64,000 nucleotides of DNA from Catelliglobosispora koreensis DSM 44566 (GTDB lineage: Bacteria; Actinomycetota; Actinomycetes; Mycobacteriales; Micromonosporaceae), in contig NZ_KB903283.1 of NCBI RefSeq assembly GCF_000379685.1, positions 336,820-400,819 on the forward strand. The letters are read 5' to 3'. Each line of letters begins with the position of its first letter. The stretch's first letter is position 1. The notes beneath the pieces were generated by a model. The model was not told where the DNA came from and ran no database searches. It saw nothing but the letters and a program-made list of their open reading frames with translations. Below, piece after piece: positions 16,028 to 23,258 of the stretch. The position numbers and the translations under genes are program-made.

Positions 16028-17103
16028 GCTGAGGTCCTTCCGAACTTGCCAACGGCGGGGCGCAACGGGACGTCGAGCGCGTCGTAGAAACCTGGTTCCG
16101 CAGCGGCGAGCCAGTCGATGGCGTTGACGAGACGGGCCGCCGCGGTGGCGTTGCCGCCAGCGGAACGGTTTCCGCCTTCGTCGCTGCACTCAACGGTCAC
16201 CTCGATGGTGGGCCGGCCTTCGACGATGACGCGGTGGGCGCCAACGCCATCGGGAGCCTGTGGCCAGTCGGGTGCGCACGACGAGTGGATGCGGGTGACG
16301 TGCTCGATGACGATCCGTGGCTCGCCGGCGATGATGCCCTGCACCTCGAAACGGATGGCTCCCTGCGTGCCGGCTTCGAACTCGCCCATCGTCTTGGTGC
16401 TGATGGTGGTTTCGAGCGCACGCCTTTCTTGCGTTTCGCGAACCTCATCGAGTTCGGCGCCCAGAGCCCGGGCCATCATGCGGATCTGGCCGCCCCACAC
16501 CATGGTCGGCACCGTTGGCGCGAGCATGGGTGGCTCATAATCCATGGGCTGACCCATGCCCACGAGCCAGCGGACCGAGTCCTCCTGGTCGTAGGTGGAG
16601 TAGTCAAAGATCTCCTGGCACCGCAGCACATCGATGGTGGAGCCGAGGCCGCTAACGAGCAGGGGGAGCAAATCGTTGCCCCAGCCCGGATCGACACCCG
16701 AGACGAACAGTGAACCGCCACCTTCGGCGATCGCGGCAAGCACCGGCTCACGCAACTCTGGTGCCGCGTTGCGCTGGTCGTAGAGCGCGTAAATAGAGGG
16801 GGTAACGACAATGGCGCCAACGCGGATCGCCTTGACGATGTCGTCGAGCGCTTCGTCGGCGCGGATCTCGCCGGAGGCCGCGTAAACCACGGCGCGGGGA
16901 CCCGTTGCCAGGACGGCGCCGACGTCGTCGGTCGCGGCGATGCCGAGCTGATAGCCAAGTCCGGCAAGCTCACCCACGTCGCGGCCAACCTTCGCCGGAT
17001 CGTTTACCAAAATTGCAACGAGTTGCAACTCCGGGTGGGCGACCGTGGCCCGGATCGCGGCCCGGCCGACGTTGCCGGTCCCCCAAACAACCGTGGGAAT
17101 CAT
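16024..17103 (-). CDS. DapB-N-like NAD(P)H-dependent oxidoreductase (amine dehydrogenase/DHDPR-like)
   Basis: 359 residues. The N-terminus VVWGTGNVGRAAIRATVAHP is a Rossmann GxGxxG resembling dihydrodipicolinate reductase and 2,4-diaminopentanoate dehydrogenase. Databases usually name such proteins generically, and many occur in mycobacterial/rhodococcal lipid and steroid loci. It is too long and divergent to be lysine-pathway DapB. The first gene of a two-gene operon with the AhpD-like protein; a KstR-like box lies 36 nt upstream of its start. A steroid-related role is inferred from that box and the convergent cholesterol oxidase. Confidence 0.72.
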   Translation of the reverse strand: MIPTVVWGTGNVGRAAIRATVAHPELQLVAILVNDPAKVGRDVGELAGLGYQLGIAATDDVGAVLATGPRAVVYAASGEIRADEALDDIVKAIRVGAIVVTPSIYALYDQRNAAPELREPVLAAIAEGGGSLFVSGVDPGWGNDLLPLLVSGLGSTIDVLRCQEIFDYSTYDQEDSVRWLVGMGQPMDYEPPMLAPTVPTMVWGGQIRMMARALGAELDEVRETQERRALETTISTKTMGEFEAGTQGAIRFEVQGIIAGEPRIVIEHVTRIHSSCAPDWPQAPDGVGAHRVIVEGRPTIEVTVECSDEGGNRSAGGNATAAARLVNAIDWLAAAEPGFYDALDVPLRPAVGKFGRTSA

Positions 17104-17138
17104 GTGTTGGAGGGTAGCAATACTGTAAGCCAGATTTC

Positions 17139-17152
17139 TAGAACAGGTTACA
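17139..17152. promoter_or_regulatory. KstR-like operator upstream of the DapB-like/AhpD-like operon
   Basis: TAGAACAGGTTACA is an exact match to TNNAACNNGTTNNA, located 36 nt upstream of the start of the minus-strand operon and overlapping the stop codon of the DUF4383 gene by 5 nt. The second such match in the window is at the cholesterol oxidase promoter 3.3 kb away. Confidence 0.6.
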
Positions 17153-17576
17153 ATTCTGATTCCACGGTGACCCGGTTGTTCAGGCCAATCCCCAAGCCGA
17201 TCATGCCGAAGCAGAAGACCAAGTGGAGCCAGTTGTCCGCCGTGTTGACAGGGACGATGTTGGCCACGCTGTCGTGATCGATGACGATGCCGTAGACCCA
17301 GACTCCTAAGTAGATCAGACCGCAGCCGATCAGGTAAGACCGCGCGGCCTTGCGTGCCAGTAGCAGACCGGCGACGCCGAAAGCCAGGTGTATCAGATTG
17401 TGCAGCACCGAAACCTGGAAGATGCCGAGCAGCCGTGCTTGCGAGTGGTGTCCAGCGAACGTGAGGTCGTCGAAGTTCGCCGTCACGCCCGGTACGAAGC
17501 CTAGCGCCCCGATCAGCAGGAAGAAAAGCCCGACGGACAGGGCCGCGATATGCAGGGCTTTGGTCTCGGGTCGCAT
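17148..17576 (-). CDS. DUF4383 integral membrane protein
   Basis: 142 residues from ATG 17576; a longer frame to 17690 adds a polar, unlikely N-terminus. Four hydrophobic helices are visible (IAALSVGLFFLLIGALGFVP; LLGIFQVSVLHNLIHLAFGV; YLIGCGLIYLGVWVYGIVI; WLHLVFCFGMIGLGIGL), with the DUF4383 HNLIH and NxxDNWLH motifs. Function unknown. Upstream, TTGACT and TACTGT spaced 16 nt lie so close to the ATG (8 nt) that the mRNA may be leaderless. Confidence 0.85.
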   Translation of the reverse strand: MRPETKALHIAALSVGLFFLLIGALGFVPGVTANFDDLTFAGHHSQARLLGIFQVSVLHNLIHLAFGVAGLLLARKAARSYLIGCGLIYLGVWVYGIVIDHDSVANIVPVNTADNWLHLVFCFGMIGLGIGLNNRVTVESEL

Positions 17577-17702
17577 GTTGTCCGACAGTACGTCCGCTAT
17601 AGCGCCAGTCAAGGGGCTATGTGGACAGAACCGCAGCGCGCACTGTAGGTTACCTTCGCGCTTAGCTATGTCAGTGTAGCTATTCTTCAAGCGGAGGCCG
17701 CC

Positions 17703-19265
17703 TTGATAAGACGAACACTGGCCGCCCTGGTCACGTTAGCGCTGGCGGCAGGAGTCAGCGCCGCCGCTCCCGCGACCGCGGCGGCACCACTACCATCACA
17801 ATGGCGTGGCTATTGGGTGGACGCGTTCAACGAGGGCGTCTACACGCCAGCACAGGTAACGAAACTCGTGCAGGACGCCCAAAAGATCAAAGCGAACGCT
17901 CTCATCGTGCAGATCGCACGGCGGTACGACTGCTTCTGCAACCGTGCGCTTTACCCGCGCACGGACGCGGCTATCGCACCATTGCCCTACGACCCGCTCG
18001 ACGAGGTGATCGCGCAGGGACACGCCGCCGGCATGCAGGTCCACGCGTGGGTGAACGTCAACACGATGTGGAACTCGGCGACACCGCACTCGTCACCAGA
18101 GCACGTGTTCAACAAGCACGGGCTCAACGCGACGGGCGCGGACCGGTGGCTGAACAAGCGCGCCGACGGTCTGGAACGTATGGGCAACAACGCCTATATG
18201 GACCCGGCCAACCCCGGTGCGGTGAACTACATCGTGCAGGCGATCCAAAGCATCATGCGTGAATACGATGTGGACGGTATCAACCTCGACTACGTCCGTT
18301 ACCCGGATTTCAACTCCACGACGACGCACAGCGACTGGGGCTACAGCGAAACCTCACTCGCGCGCTTCCACGCGGCGACCGGGCGAACGGATGTGCCCGC
18401 TGCTTCCGATCCACAATTTTCGGACTGGCGGCGTACCCAAATGACGAACTTGGTCCGCAAGATTTATCTGGGTATGTGGGAAGTGGACCCGCGGGCGAGG
18501 CTGTCGATGGACGGCATCACCTATAGCTATGGTCCGCAAACCATGGGCGGCTGGGAGAAGACCCGGCCTTACGCCGAGGTGCTGCAGGACTGGAAAGGCT
18601 GGCAAGCCGAGGGGATCATGGACACGGTCGTGGCCATGAACTACAAGCGCAACTGGATGCCAGACCAGAAGCAGATGTTCGACGAGTGGACCGAAGTGCT
18701 CGCGGACTGGCAGGGGGAGCGGCAGGCCGTCGTTGGGCCCGCGCTTTACCTCAACGACATCCCCGACAGCGTGACTCAGGTGCGGACGGCCTTGGCGCCA
18801 ACCGCGGCGGGAAACACTGTCGCGGGCTGGAGTGGTTACTCCTACGCCAATCCCACGAGGGCTGGGGTAGGGCAGAGTGCCGCGGTGCGCGACGCGGAGC
18901 GGGATCTGCTGGTTCAGGCACTGACGCAGGGACCGGATGCTCCGTTCGCCAACGAGGTAGCCGTGCCTTCGATGCCGTGGAAGTACACGCCATCGGAGGG
19001 ACACGTGGCCGGCCGGGTGACCTTGCGCGATGGCACCCCGCTCGACCAGATCAAGGTGACGTTGCAACCGCTCACCACGGGCGGGTCGGCCGTGAGCCGT
19101 CTCGCCGACGGTGACGGATGGTTTGGCTTCGTGCACCTGGACCCGGGCTTCTACCTGGTGCAGATCGAGCTTCCCAACGGGACGGTCGGCAGGCCGGTGG
19201 CGGTGGCCAGGGTCACGGCAGGTGGCGTCGCGAAAACCGATTTCACCCAGCTGATCAGGCTGTAA
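17703..19265 (+). CDS. secreted glycoside hydrolase-like protein (GHL10/YngK family) with C-terminal beta-sandwich
   Basis: The TTG start is supported by GGAGG at 17693-17697. 520 residues: Sec signal peptide (cleavage near ATAAAP), a TIM-barrel resembling PF02638 (WRGYWVDAFNEGVYTPAQVT, GMQVHAWVNVNT, VDGINLDYVRYP), and a C-terminal carboxypeptidase-regulatory-like domain from about residue 435 (VAGRVTLRDGTPLDQ). Acidic residues in DGINLDYVR are candidates for catalysis. Substrate unknown; cell-wall or exopolysaccharide is usual for the family. Two TAGCTAT direct repeats (17663, 17677) lie just upstream. Confidence 0.85.
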   Translation: MIRRTLAALVTLALAAGVSAAAPATAAAPLPSQWRGYWVDAFNEGVYTPAQVTKLVQDAQKIKANALIVQIARRYDCFCNRALYPRTDAAIAPLPYDPLDEVIAQGHAAGMQVHAWVNVNTMWNSATPHSSPEHVFNKHGLNATGADRWLNKRADGLERMGNNAYMDPANPGAVNYIVQAIQSIMREYDVDGINLDYVRYPDFNSTTTHSDWGYSETSLARFHAATGRTDVPAASDPQFSDWRRTQMTNLVRKIYLGMWEVDPRARLSMDGITYSYGPQTMGGWEKTRPYAEVLQDWKGWQAEGIMDTVVAMNYKRNWMPDQKQMFDEWTEVLADWQGERQAVVGPALYLNDIPDSVTQVRTALAPTAAGNTVAGWSGYSYANPTRAGVGQSAAVRDAERDLLVQALTQGPDAPFANEVAVPSMPWKYTPSEGHVAGRVTLRDGTPLDQIKVTLQPLTTGGSAVSRLADGDGWFGFVHLDPGFYLVQIELPNGTVGRPVAVARVTAGGVAKTDFTQLIRL

Positions 19266-19274
19266 GCTAGGACC

Positions 19275-19328
19275 ATGCTGCAGGTTAAAGCCACGACGAC
19301 GCCGGTATCCCCGGCGCGATCATGCTGA
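19275..19328 (+). CDS. leader peptide with three consecutive threonine codons
   Basis: An 17-residue frame, MLQVKATTTPVSPARSC then TGA, begins 10 nt after the preceding gene, with a weak AGGA site upstream. Residues 7-9 are Thr-Thr-Thr (ACG ACG ACG, 19293-19301). It precedes an intrinsic terminator and a threonyl-tRNA-synthetase-like gene. In classical attenuation, ribosomes stall at runs of the cognate codon when the charged tRNA is scarce. Here the codon, the gene and the terminator all agree. Confidence 0.7.
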   Translation: MLQVKATTTPVSPARSC

Positions 19329-19385
19329 CCTGCAAGCGTTAGTCATCATGCGGCTCCGGGTTCATCCCGGGGCCGCATTCTTTCT
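19300..19385 (+). terminator. transcription attenuator upstream of the ThrRS-like gene
   Basis: The terminator hairpin is ATGCGGCTCCGGG (19348-19360) with CCCGGGGCCGCAT (19366-19378), 13 pairs with one G-U, a 5-nt loop, followed by TCTTTCT. Upstream, CGCCGG (19300-19305) pairs with CCGGCG (19311-19316) right after the Thr codons. CCCGG (19310-19314) can instead pair with CCGGG (19356-19360) of the terminator arm, giving an antiterminator. TGCAGGT (19279-19285) and ACCTGCA (19328-19334) can also pair. A ribosome stalled on the Thr codons would block the first hairpin and favour readthrough. Structures are from base pairing by eye. Confidence 0.7.
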
Positions 19386-19429
19386 GCCCTCCTGATGAGC
19401 CCAGCCGCTTATCCCAGGGAGAGAGCATC

Positions 19430-20623
19430 ATGGTTGATCACCGCAAACTCGGGCGCGAACTTGAGCTGTTCCACAGCGATCCGCTGATCGGTGCTGGCTT
19501 GCCCGTGTGGCTGCCCGCCGGGGCGGCCGCCAGACACGCCGTAGAGGAGTATCTGCGTGAGCAAGAACGCCTCGCCGGTTATGAGCACGTGTATTCCCCG
19601 CCTATGGCCAAACGCGAGCTATTCGAACGCTCAGGGCACTTGGCGAAGTTTGGCGACGATATGTTTCCCGGCATGCCCGATGGCGACAGCGAGCTGATGC
19701 TCAGACCGAGCCTGTGCCCGCAACATGCCCTCGTCTTCGCCGCGAGGGGACGCTCCTATCGCGACCTTCCGTTGCGGATCGCGGAACTGGGCGGCATGTA
19801 CCGGGCGGAACGCTCCGGTGTGGTCGGTGGGCTAAGCCGGGTGCGCTCGATTTGGCTTAACGACGCGCATATCTTCTGTGCGCTGGATCAAGTGGGCGAT
19901 GAGGTGGCCGCGGTATTAAGGCTGATGCGCCGTGTGCACGCCGCGCTCGGCTTGGTCCCGTACAGGTTCCGGCTATCGCTGCGGGGGCAGAGCATTCTTG
20001 GCAGTCCCGCGGACTGGGACCGCGCGGAAGACTTTCTGCGCCAAGCACTTGTCGCCGAAGGCATCGACTATTACGAAGCGCCCGGCGAGGCGGCGTTCTA
20101 CGGTCCGAAGATCGATGTGCAGATGCTTGACTCGGCTGGCCGTGAGTGGAGCCTCGCGACCGTCCAAATTGACTTCGCCCAGCCTGAGCGGTTTGGCCTG
20201 GAATATGTTGACGCGCAAGGCAACCGGCAACGGCCCGTCATGGTTCACCGCAGTCTCGCCGGCAGCATGGAGCGGCTGTTCGCCATGCTGATCGAAATAC
20301 ACGAAGGGGCGTTTCCCGCTTGGTACGCCCCGGTCCAGCTAGCGATCGCTCCGGTTGGCGAGGCGCAACACGACTATGCCTATGAATTCGCGGCCTCGGC
20401 GCGCCGGGCAGGGCTGCGTGTTGACCTGCTGGCGGACGGTTCGGTCGGGTTGCGCGTGCGTGAGGCGATCCAGCGAAAGATTCCCTACGCCGCCGTCATC
20501 GGAGCCCGGGAAGTTAGTAGTGGCAACGTTTCTTTGCGCCGGCGTGATGGCAGTGAGTTACCGCCTCAAAGCAGAGAGGAAGCGATCGGGGAGATCCTGC
20601 GGAAGAAACCTTCAAATGAATGA
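19430..20623 (+). CDS. threonyl-tRNA synthetase-like protein lacking TGS and editing domains
   Basis: 397 residues against about 640-690 for housekeeping ThrRS. ATG follows GGGAGAG. It starts directly at the class II catalytic core: motif 2 region YRAERSGVVGGLSRVRSIWL, motif 3 HRSLAGSMERLF, and the zinc ligands of ThrRS in RPSLCPQH, NDAHIFC and MVHRS. An anticodon-binding domain (WYAPVQLAIAPVG to the end) follows. It could charge tRNA-Thr without proofreading, act as a resistance or stress paralogue, or activate Thr for another purpose. The Thr-codon leader suggests it is induced by Thr-tRNA shortage. Confidence 0.88.
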   Translation: MVDHRKLGRELELFHSDPLIGAGLPVWLPAGAAARHAVEEYLREQERLAGYEHVYSPPMAKRELFERSGHLAKFGDDMFPGMPDGDSELMLRPSLCPQHALVFAARGRSYRDLPLRIAELGGMYRAERSGVVGGLSRVRSIWLNDAHIFCALDQVGDEVAAVLRLMRRVHAALGLVPYRFRLSLRGQSILGSPADWDRAEDFLRQALVAEGIDYYEAPGEAAFYGPKIDVQMLDSAGREWSLATVQIDFAQPERFGLEYVDAQGNRQRPVMVHRSLAGSMERLFAMLIEIHEGAFPAWYAPVQLAIAPVGEAQHDYAYEFAASARRAGLRVDLLADGSVGLRVREAIQRKIPYAAVIGAREVSSGNVSLRRRDGSELPPQSREEAIGEILRKKPSNE

Positions 20624-20714
20624 CACAACTTCGCAAAGCATCTTCAGTGATTCTTTGACATTAGTTATAGTCGCGCCGTGAACCCTTAACACATCCCCCA
20701 CGTGAGAGGTACAC

Positions 20715-21779
20715 ATGGTCAATCACCCCTTGGCCCGGCGGCGCACCCTTCTTGCCGCCGCGGCCGGAGCCGCTATCTCCCCATGGGCGGTATCGGGCGT
20801 AGCGAACGCTGCTCCTCCGAAGATCTACATTGACCCCGGTCACGGCGGCACCGATCCCGGTGCCGTCGCCAATGGCCTGCAGGAAAAGACGTTGACCCTC
20901 AACATCGCTTTGCAGGTACGCAACATTCTGCAAGCGAACTACGACGTCGACATCCGCATGTCGCGCACCACCGACATCACCCGCAGCCTCGACTACCGCA
21001 CCAATGACGCCAACGCCTGGGGAGCTGCGATCTTCGTCAGTGTCCACATCAACTCCGGTGGTGGCACGGGCTTCGAGAGCTACCGTTACCCGACGGCGGA
21101 CACGGCGACGGTCAACCTGCACAACGCGTTGCACTCGAAGATCATCACGAGTATGCGGACGGTCGGTTCGGTGACGGACCGGGGTAAGAAGACCGCGAAC
21201 TTCCACGTGCTGCGTGAGTCGAACATGCCCGCTGTGCTCACGGAAAACCTGTTCATCGACACCACCGCTGACGCGAATCTGCTCAAGAACGCCAGCTTCC
21301 TGACGGCCACCGCCAATGGGCACGCTCAGGGCATCGCGCAGTACCTGGGGCTCAGCGCGCCGCCGCCGACGTATACGTCCACTGTGGACAACGCCACGGC
21401 GGGCCGCTTCACCGCCAGTGCCAACTGGGGCACGTCCACGTTCTCGGCGCAGCGTCACGGCGCCGACTACCGGTTCGCCAACCCAGTGCTGGCAAGCGAT
21501 GCGGCCTGGTTCAAGGTGAACATTCCCAGCGCGGGCAACTACCGCGTGGACGTGTGGCACCCGGCCGACGCTGGCTACTGCAGCTCCGCGCCGCACATCA
21601 TCGCCACCGCCAGCGGCAATCAGACCGTCCACGTCGACCAGCGCAGCGGCGGTGGCGCCTGGAAGTCGCTAGGCACCTTCAGTCTCGCCGCCGGTGACCG
21701 TGACCTCGTCGGCGTGAGCCGCTGGACGAGCGCCACGGGTTACGTCATCGCCGACGCGGTGCGGGTGACTCGCGTTTAA
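20715..21779 (+). CDS. secreted N-acetylmuramoyl-L-alanine amidase (Amidase_3) with golvesin-like C-terminal domain
   Basis: 354 residues with a Tat-like signal ([14 protein letters not shown]). The Amidase_3 zinc site can be read: His in [10 protein letters not shown], Glu in LQEKTL, His in FVSVHINSG, catalytic Glu in LTENLF. From about residue 215, a golvesin/xly-type beta domain ([20 protein letters not shown] ... ADAVRVTRV) probably binds the wall. It cleaves the amide between MurNAc and the stem peptide. It may be independently transcribed: TTGACA occurs at 20655, but no good -10 hexamer was found. Confidence 0.92.
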
Positions 21780-21789
21780 GGCGACGCCA

Positions 21790-21824
21790 TGATGATGCGC
21801 GGGTCGTGCTCCCGCGCATCATCA
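21790..21824. terminator. bidirectional stem-loop between amidase and LigD-like gene
   Basis: TGATGATGCGCGGG (21790-21803) and CCCGCGCATCATCA (21811-21824) form a perfect 14-bp stem with a 7-nt loop. Its right arm includes the stop codon of the LigD-like gene on the opposite strand. Confidence 0.85.
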
Positions 21825-23258
21825 CGTCAGCTTCGGCAGCCGCTGCGTGTGCTTGAGGACATCGCGGAACGGATCGCCTTTGACAGCAAGACGTTGCGGC
21901 ACGGTATGGATCGTGAATCCGTCCGGGCGCAGCTCGGGATCGTCGAGCTCGTCCCAGGCGATCGGCACGGAAACCGGAGCGCCCGCAGCGGGACGTGTGC
22001 TGTAGGGCGCGACAAGGGTCTTGTTGATCGCGTTTTGCGTGTAATCAAGGCGTGCCAAGCCCGCGCGGTCGCTCTTTTGCCACTTCCAGCTCACCAGCTC
22101 GGGGACGACCGCACCGATGTTTTTGGACAGTTGCTCCACCCACGCTCTTGTTTCCTCGAAGCTAGGGCCGGGCTTTATGGGTACCCATATTTGAATGCCG
22201 CGGCGGCCGGTCACCTTGGCACAGGCTTTGAGCCGCAGATGCTCGAAAGCCGTGCGGTGCAACCGCGCCAGCACGAGCAAGTCCTCCCACGAGGTCTTAC
22301 CCCCAGGATCAAGATCTATGAGGGCGTACGAGGGAAGGCGCGGCTCTGAGATTTCCGAAGTCCACGGATGCCATTCCAGGGCACCAAAGTTGGCCGCCCA
22401 CACGAGCGCGGCAGGCTCATTGACGACGAGATAAGTGCGCGTCTCTCCCGGATCGGCTTCAGGATTGTCCCACCGGCCGACCCAGTCCGGCGCGTGATCG
22501 GGCAACTGCTTATGCCAGAACCCTTTGGTGTCAGCACCATTGGGGAAACGATGCAGATTCAGCGCTCGGTTGGCCAGATAAGGCGTGAGCGCGGGTGCGA
22601 TCTGAGCGGTGTAACGCAGGAACTCCCGTTTGGTGACTGGCTTTTCCCCGCGCCGGGCCGGAAACAGCACCTTGTCCAAATTGGTCACGCGCAGTTCGCG
22701 GCCGAAGATGTGCCACTTACCGTTGGCACGAAAGGAATCCAGCTCGGCGAACTCCTCTTCGTGCTCGGAATCCCAAATGCGGGCCGGATTCGCCTTGACC
22801 TCATCGTTGGTGCGGTCGCTAAGCACCGAACGCGGATAGTCCTCGGGGTCCCATCCGTCCACCGCGAACTCGTCGTTCTTGTGGAACATCAGCCAGTCCT
22901 TCTCGCTGCGCGTGCGCACGAGCACGAACCGGCCCTGTAACTTCTCGCCCGACAGATCGACGTGGATCTCGCCGTTGGCGACCGCCTCGCCCGGGTCGGG
23001 TTCCTTCGCCTCGTAGGTGCCCACATCCCAGACGATGACGTCACCGGCACCGTACTGACCCGACGGGATGACTCCCTCGAAGTCGAAATAGCTCAGGGGG
23101 TGATCCTCCACTTTGAAGGCGGCCCGCCGTGCCTTCGCGTCGAGCGTCGGGCCCTTCGGCACCGCCCAGCTCACGAGCACGCCGTCCATCTCCAGGCGAA
23201 AGTCGTAGTGCAGCCGGCGTGCCCGGTGCCGCTGAACCACGAACCGCCTAGGTTTCAC
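21822..23258 (-). CDS. LigD-type 3'-phosphoesterase plus primase-polymerase, without ligase domain
   Basis: 478 residues from a GTG start. Residues 1-150 are the phosphoesterase domain (HYDFRLEMDGVLVSWAVPKG, DHPLSYFDFEGVIPSGQYGA). From about 190 the LigD polymerase (archaeo-eukaryotic primase) domain follows, with the metal-binding ALIDLDPG. This pair of activities trims and fills broken ends in Ku-dependent non-homologous end joining. The ATP-dependent ligase module of full LigD is absent, as in many actinomycetes that encode it separately. No Ku gene is in the window. The order PE-Pol is the reverse of mycobacterial LigD (Pol-PE-Lig). Confidence 0.9.
   Translation of the reverse strand: MKPRRFVVQRHRARRLHYDFRLEMDGVLVSWAVPKGPTLDAKARRAAFKVEDHPLSYFDFEGVIPSGQYGAGDVIVWDVGTYEAKEPDPGEAVANGEIHVDLSGEKLQGRFVLVRTRSEKDWLMFHKNDEFAVDGWDPEDYPRSVLSDRTNDEVKANPARIWDSEHEEEFAELDSFRANGKWHIFGRELRVTNLDKVLFPARRGEKPVTKREFLRYTAQIAPALTPYLANRALNLHRFPNGADTKGFWHKQLPDHAPDWVGRWDNPEADPGETRTYLVVNEPAALVWAANFGALEWHPWTSEISEPRLPSYALIDLDPGGKTSWEDLLVLARLHRTAFEHLRLKACAKVTGRRGIQIWVPIKPGPSFEETRAWVEQLSKNIGAVVPELVSWKWQKSDRAGLARLDYTQNAINKTLVAPYSTRPAAGAPVSVPIAWDELDDPELRPDGFTIHTVPQRLAVKGDPFRDVLKHTQRLPKLT

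Follow-up and report, generated by a model that had tools for sequence, protein, structure and literature searches.

A conserved threonine-codon leader with competing hairpins, predicted to attenuate a short threonyl-tRNA synthetase gene in actinomycetes

A short threonyl-tRNA synthetase (ThrRS) paralogue of Catelliglobosispora koreensis DSM 44566 is preceded by a leader frame with three consecutive ACG threonine codons and by three mutually exclusive RNA pairings. In all likelihood, this arrangement is a classical ribosome-mediated transcription attenuator that senses the charging of tRNA-Thr and controls an emergency or backup ThrRS. The same anatomy lies upstream of 94 of the 95 assessable paralogue loci, more than chance would give, which span several families of filamentous soil bacteria, and the comparison of these loci supports the attenuation reading well.

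Results

Anatomy of the leader region

We analyzed a stretch of 64,000 nucleotides of contig NZ_KB903283.1 (positions 336,820 to 400,819, forward strand), which we call the window and in whose numbering all coordinates are given. For brevity, we refer to the short paralogue gene as thrS2, to the full-length ThrRS of a genome as its primary ThrRS, and to the pairing segments of the leader RNA as elements 1 to 4. The features of the region are as follows.

19232..19237, + strand: putative WblC/WhiB7-type box GAAAAC (consensus GAAAWY), 3 nt 5' of the putative -35 hexamer
19241..19246, + strand: putative -35 hexamer TTTCAC, assigned by position only, with a 16-nt spacer to the -10 box
19263..19268, + strand: putative -10 box TAAGCT (TANNNT), at a conserved position before the leader start
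19275..19328, + strand: leader peptide ORF MLQVKATTTPVSPARSC, 17 codons, ATG at 19275, TGA at 19326-19328
19281..19332, + strand: leader hairpin, element 1:2, with inner stem CGCCGG (19300-19305)/CCGGCG (19311-19316) and outer helices
19293..19301, + strand: sensor codons 7 to 9, ACG ACG ACG (three Thr codons), from the sequence and homologous leaders
19310..19360, + strand: antiterminator, element 2:3, CCCGG (19310-19314) with CCGGG (19356-19360) plus inner helices
19348..19378, + strand: intrinsic terminator hairpin, element 3:4, 13-bp stem with 10 G-C pairs and a 5-nt loop
19379..19387, + strand: T-rich terminator tail TCTTTCTGC, from the terminator scan and T enrichment in homologues
19416..19423, + strand: Shine-Dalgarno-like AGGGAGAG of thrS2, from the sequence
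19430..20623, + strand: thrS2, 397 aa, catalytic core and anticodon-binding domain without TGS or editing domains

The original prediction had described a 17-codon frame with three ACG codons, an intrinsic terminator with a U-rich tail, an antiterminator and a ThrRS-like gene under ribosome-mediated attenuation, and all of these attenuator parts lie exactly where it had placed them. The leader hairpin and the promoter directly upstream were absent from it. The preceding glycosyl-hydrolase-like gene (PF02638, 17703-19265) ends with a stop codon (19263-19265) that overlaps the putative -10 box. Directly downstream of thrS2 lies a gene for an N-acetylmuramoyl-L-alanine amidase with a Golvesin C-terminal domain (20715-21779), a neighbor not common to the other loci. 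No Rfam family matched positions 17000 to 23000 of the window at E <= 1, including the T-box (RF00230) and the enterobacterial threonine leader (RF00506), and both identities were rejected.

The Thr-Thr-Thr-Pro leader is conserved at paralogue loci

To survey the paralogue, we searched 301 Micromonosporaceae genomes with a cut of E <= 1e-110 and found it in 221; it also occurs in further families of Actinomycetia, a class in which paralogues (E <= 5e-126) are separated by a clear gap from primary ThrRS proteins (E >= 4e-110). Genomes with related loci include Rhizocola, Catellatospora, Hamadaea, Allorhizocola, Catenuloplanes and Amorphoplanes. We inspected 96 paralogue loci from two combined genome collections, with a few species counted under two locus numbers, and left out the one cut by a contig end (L066). 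An in-frame Thr-Thr-Thr-Pro leader is present at 94 of the remaining 95 loci, and the last (L052) reads Thr-Thr-Pro. The leader-finding script demanded TTTP, and the loci that it missed were viewed individually, so the count was not produced by the filter. The leaders form two types: type A, found in Micromonosporaceae, is exemplified by MHQQLSTTTPGHPGVTAC, and type B, mostly from other families, by MKRAAMTTTPESVPAR, with the consensus M[KQ]RA..TTTPE[ST]VPAR.

The choice of threonine codon is strongly biased. Among 86 unique TTTP leaders, the first sensor position is ACG in 75, ACC in 10 and ACT in 1, the second is ACG in 85 and ACC in 1, and the third is invariably ACG (86/86), which makes ACG 246 of the 258 Thr sensor codons (~95%). 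The window leader is of the form seen in classical attenuators, a short ORF with an in-frame run of cognate codons (TTT), and is predicted to be translated.

The promoter points to a probable leaderless transcript and a possible WblC input

Upstream of the ATG, the window promoter is laid out as GAAAAC-CGA-TTTCAC-N16-TAAGCT-N6-ATG. Of the 92 loci analyzed in detail, 91 have a TANNNT hexamer 6 to 8 nt 5' of the leader ATG or equivalent start, and TAnnnT is the -10 consensus of Streptomyces lividans (PMC8079986). With this spacing, transcription would begin at the start codon or right beside it, and the leader is therefore probably translated from a leaderless mRNA that begins at or adjoins ATG 19275. 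A sigma70 consensus scan of the window found no promoter, which is unsurprising for promoters of the TANNNT type.

The published WblC box is GAAAWY located 3 nt upstream of the -35 hexamer (PMC7157823), the arrangement present in the window. Across 85 unique homologous promoters, GAAAWY occurs 24 to 29 nt before the -10 box in 27, at exactly 27 nt in 22 of them, compared with a mean of 0.16 and a maximum of 2 in shuffled regions; the distance in the window is 25 nt. The C. koreensis genome has six Whib-domain genes. The leader promoter looks WblC/WhiB7-dependent.

This raises the question of whether the main signal is general translation stress, as caused by antibiotics and relayed through WblC/WhiB7, with the leader as a minor relay. 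The box at a fixed distance speaks for such a signal, as does the S. coelicolor WblC regulon, which lists both thrS2 and trpS as WblC-activated (PMC7157823). However, virtually all leaders retain the Thr codons, but the strict GAAAWY box is present in about a third of the promoters, and the leader can also sit on primary thrS genes. We consider a dominant WblC signal unlikely, though it would be compatible with attenuation.

Three competing pairings have co-adapted arms

Folding the window leader for alternative structures, as the original prediction had proposed, yields three competing pairings. The leader hairpin, whose outer helices connect the leader start with the leader stop region, has a predicted energy of -23.2 kcal/mol (z -3.2). 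We mimicked a ribosome stalled on ACG by masking the 5' arm of this hairpin; with the 3' arm of the terminator not yet made, the antiterminator then folds at -22.1 kcal/mol, with inner helices CAUG/CAUG and UGAC/GUCA. Its outer helix is exactly the pairing of 19310-19314 with 19356-19360 that had been predicted, and 89 of 92 loci folded under the same constraints likewise form the 2:3 pairing. By itself the window antiterminator reaches a z of only -1.9, so its support comes from the homologues. A terminator scan recovered the hairpin at 19348-19378 with the tail TCTTTCTGCC, against 0.0 expected in shuffles, and its fold has a predicted energy of -27.6 kcal/mol (z -7.2). The window therefore carries an intrinsic terminator with a U-rich tail.

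RNAalifold on a MAFFT alignment recovered 8 pairs only, because the terminator columns were out of register, and we used arm swapping in place of column covariation. This test exchanges arms between loci within each leader type and is independent of any single sequence. Among 37 nonredundant type A loci, native folds were better than swapped ones for 1:2 (z -9.1), 2:3 (z -5.7) and 3:4 (z -15.9), with 0 of 5000 permutations reaching the native value in each case. Among 13 type B loci, whose sequences vary little, the result is clear for 3:4 (z -6.6, 0/5000), while 1:2 (z -1.9) and 2:3 (z -1.6) are not significant alone. Arm swapping thus shows that the predicted arms of the leader hairpin, antiterminator and terminator are co-adapted, all three in type A and 3:4 in type B. 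Threonine codons and hairpins, on whose conservation in homologues the original prediction had been staked, are both kept across several actinomycete families among the genomes sampled.

Could the same leader sense threonine and act on translation or through Rho instead, by governing access to the thrS2 start or access of Rho? Tails are T-enriched relative to control frames in both type A (3.2 versus 1.3) and type B (2.6 versus 1.1) homologues, yet in about a third of them the tail contains no more than two T, and some of these may rely on a weak terminator, on Rho or on control of translation. The authors of the S. lividans reannotation also describe a hairpin after thrL with no uridine-rich stretch (PMC8079986), and in the predicted fold of the window the sequence after the terminator (19379-19427) can pair with the thrS2 Shine-Dalgarno region, a possible second, translational layer. 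On the other side, the window combines a strong hairpin with a T-rich tail, the 3:4 hairpin has the strongest arm co-adaptation of all elements, and in most loci its end is about 40 to 60 nt away from the start codon, too far for direct occlusion. A translational or Rho-dependent output in place of intrinsic termination is rather improbable.

The element is associated with thrS genes

A covariance model of the leader (R1), applied to 394 Actinomycetia genomes, separates matches (>44 bits) from background (<38 bits) and has one match in the C. koreensis genome. Among the strong matches that lacked a listed paralogue, one (L133) has the paralogue after all and another (L140) runs into a contig end. 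At three more (L134, L135 and L136), the leader precedes the full-length thrS of the primary enzyme, and these genomes have no short paralogue within the class-wide range (E <= 5e-126). As a control, we examined the upstream regions of 20 primary thrS genes: 19 lack the leader, that of C. koreensis included, and the twentieth (G626) belongs to the genome of L135. A Thr leader as a general feature of primary thrS is therefore rejected, although three paralogue-free lineages have one. An intact-looking leader at a further match of this group (L139, about 376-574, reversed strand) lies beside a 23-residue paralogue remnant and is to all appearances an orphaned attenuator left after gene loss.

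It is barely credible that the hairpin is the 3' terminator of the glycosyl-hydrolase-like gene (stop at 19263-19265) and the 17-codon ORF a product of chance. The hairpin does begin 82 nt downstream of that gene, in the same orientation, and is followed by a proper T tail, but no other tested locus has a homologue of the upstream protein in front of it, and yet the leader and its hairpins stay with the ThrRS gene. The upstream-gene reading is rejected on the first ground and the chance ORF by conservation. Because the leader is found on thrS paralogues and on paralogue-free primaries, and the upstream gene is unshared, the element travels with thrS genes.

The paralogue is a threonine-poor synthetase that avoids ACG

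The identity of the downstream gene as a ThrRS paralogue holds. Its product scores 440 bits against TIGR00418 over model positions 171-561 of 565, with the N-terminal TGS and editing domains absent, and its Pfam domains (tRNA-synt_2b and HGTP_anticodon) correspond to a class II core and an anticodon-binding domain. C. koreensis also encodes a primary ThrRS, 43% identical to the paralogue over the shared part. Residues below are numbered after E. coli ThrRS, by a segment and numbering anchored on C334, T482 and H511. The zinc ligands and catalytic residues (C334, H385, H511, R363, D383, T482, Q484 and R520) are conserved in all 93 paralogues compared.

Threonine itself is strikingly scarce in these enzymes. 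Its mean content is 1.20% in the paralogues versus 4.13% in the corresponding region of the primary ThrRS. Within residues 1-390, the only Thr of the window paralogue is the one at position T482; the C. koreensis primary has 17 in the matching region. Lysine and asparagine are also low in the paralogues, which high G+C could explain, but threonine has G+C-rich codons. The threonines that remain avoid the sensor codon: the paralogues use 428 ACC, 7 ACT and 4 ACG (ACG 4/439), and the primaries 252 ACC, 80 ACG and 7 others (ACG 80/339). The leader-bearing primaries, three cases only, have 10 to 12 Thr in the domain versus 13 to 21 in 21 primary domains.

The paralogues also differ from the primaries at positions that bear on inhibitor binding. 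Every paralogue has Leu at position 381, where 23 of 24 primaries have Gln and the C. koreensis primary has Met; at position 513, the paralogues have Ser or Gly and all primaries Ala. Position 489, with Gln or Lys in almost every paralogue, is less informative, since Gln also occurs in 8 of 24 primaries. In human ThrRS, Gln460 and Ala592 contact borrelidin, and borrelidin-resistant archaeal enzymes carry Met and Ser (PMC4389257). By offset and alignment, these human residues correspond to E. coli 381 and 513. The changes at these contacts suggest natural tolerance to borrelidin-class ThrRS inhibitors. An enzyme without an editing domain may also mischarge Ser, which would favor keeping the paralogue off otherwise.

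Discussion

The order of the parts suggests how the attenuator would work. The Thr codons (19293-19301) run into the 5' arm of the inner leader stem (19300-19305), element 2 begins at 19310 and the stop codon at 19326. For a ribosome footprint of the usual size, this geometry would suit a stalled ribosome that blocks 1:2 and a ribosome at the stop codon that blocks element 2. RNA polymerase would start at or next to ATG 19275 from a WblC/WhiB7-like promoter and produce a leaderless mRNA. With ample charged tRNA-Thr that reads ACG, a ribosome would pass the three ACG codons, stop at UGA 19326 and cover element 2, so that the 3:4 terminator forms and transcription ends. When charged tRNA-Thr is short, through threonine famine or inhibition of the main ThrRS, the ribosome would halt on ACG and cover the leader hairpin's 5' arm, leaving element 2 free to pair with element 3 (CCCGG/CCGGG and the inner helices); no terminator would form and thrS2 would be transcribed. 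Without translation, 1:2 would form and termination would be the default. The paralogue would thus serve as a backup ThrRS, made if the main enzyme fails or threonine is scarce.

The original prediction knew of no described Thr-codon leader for an actinomycete ThrRS paralogue, a remark that needs correcting, since the reannotation of S. lividans TK24 already lists thrL MKRVRPFLETTPGFVPAR before thrS, leaderless by RNA-seq and with termination unclear, without cross-species analysis (PMC8079986). That pair (SLIV_19412/19410) shares with our loci a leaderless short ORF, adjacent Thr codons, Thr-Thr-Pro and a VPAR end, and its leader strongly resembles the type B consensus. It differs in being reported from one species with two Thr codons and with no alternative structures or conservation described (PMC8079986). 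Gene order suggests that SLIV_19410 corresponds to the short paralogue (SCO3778-like). Threonine leaders of thrS are therefore a known kind of element; what is new is how widely this one occurs, how it is built and that the enzyme behind it avoids threonine. Our literature search, in which subscription journals were thinly covered, returned no comparative study of an actinomycete Thr leader.

Related designs exist elsewhere. Enterobacteria have a thr operon leader (RF00506) with Thr codons in the leader peptide and competing hairpins; it regulates biosynthesis genes and has Ile codons as well, whereas the leader described here precedes a ThrRS gene. Among actinomycetes, S. coelicolor trpRS1 is reportedly under attenuation. 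That enzyme is indolmycin-resistant according to the statement in PMC9437257 that cites Kitabatake 2002 and Vecchione and Sello 2009, and a 2005 survey of Actinobacteria reported attenuators of Streptomyces trpS and leuS and no threonine element (PMC1262725). Like thrS2, trpS, leuS and trpRS1 are second or attenuated actinomycete aminoacyl-tRNA synthetase genes whose leaders carry cognate codons, with an inducible backup or resistant enzyme, but for another amino acid. Anabaena T2 is also a second ThrRS with defective editing that is expressed under stress. It differs in that its signal is zinc limitation and a degenerate editing domain is kept (PMC4787780), and it is not known to have a leader peptide.

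The Thr- and ACG-poor enzyme is the less expected part of our findings. More tentatively, and with somewhat less than even confidence, we propose a dedicated threonyl-tRNA famine system in which an ACG-sensing leader is coupled to a Thr-stripped synthetase, of a family that encodes its few threonines by ACC, which could still be produced with hardly any charged tRNA-Thr left. With its altered borrelidin contacts (Gln381 to Leu, Ala513 to Ser/Gly), this enzyme may be an inducible, inhibitor-resistant ThrRS under joint control of WblC and the attenuator.

What had been a one-line prediction in one Streptomyces becomes a conserved, testable control element in several actinomycete families, one that very probably turns a spare ThrRS on when charged threonine tRNA runs short. 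Antibiotic producers would thus possess a natural inducible sensor of Thr-tRNA charging. The pairing of an ACG sensor with a Thr-poor, ACG-avoiding enzyme makes the adaptation of a gene to translation during starvation for its own amino acid directly testable.
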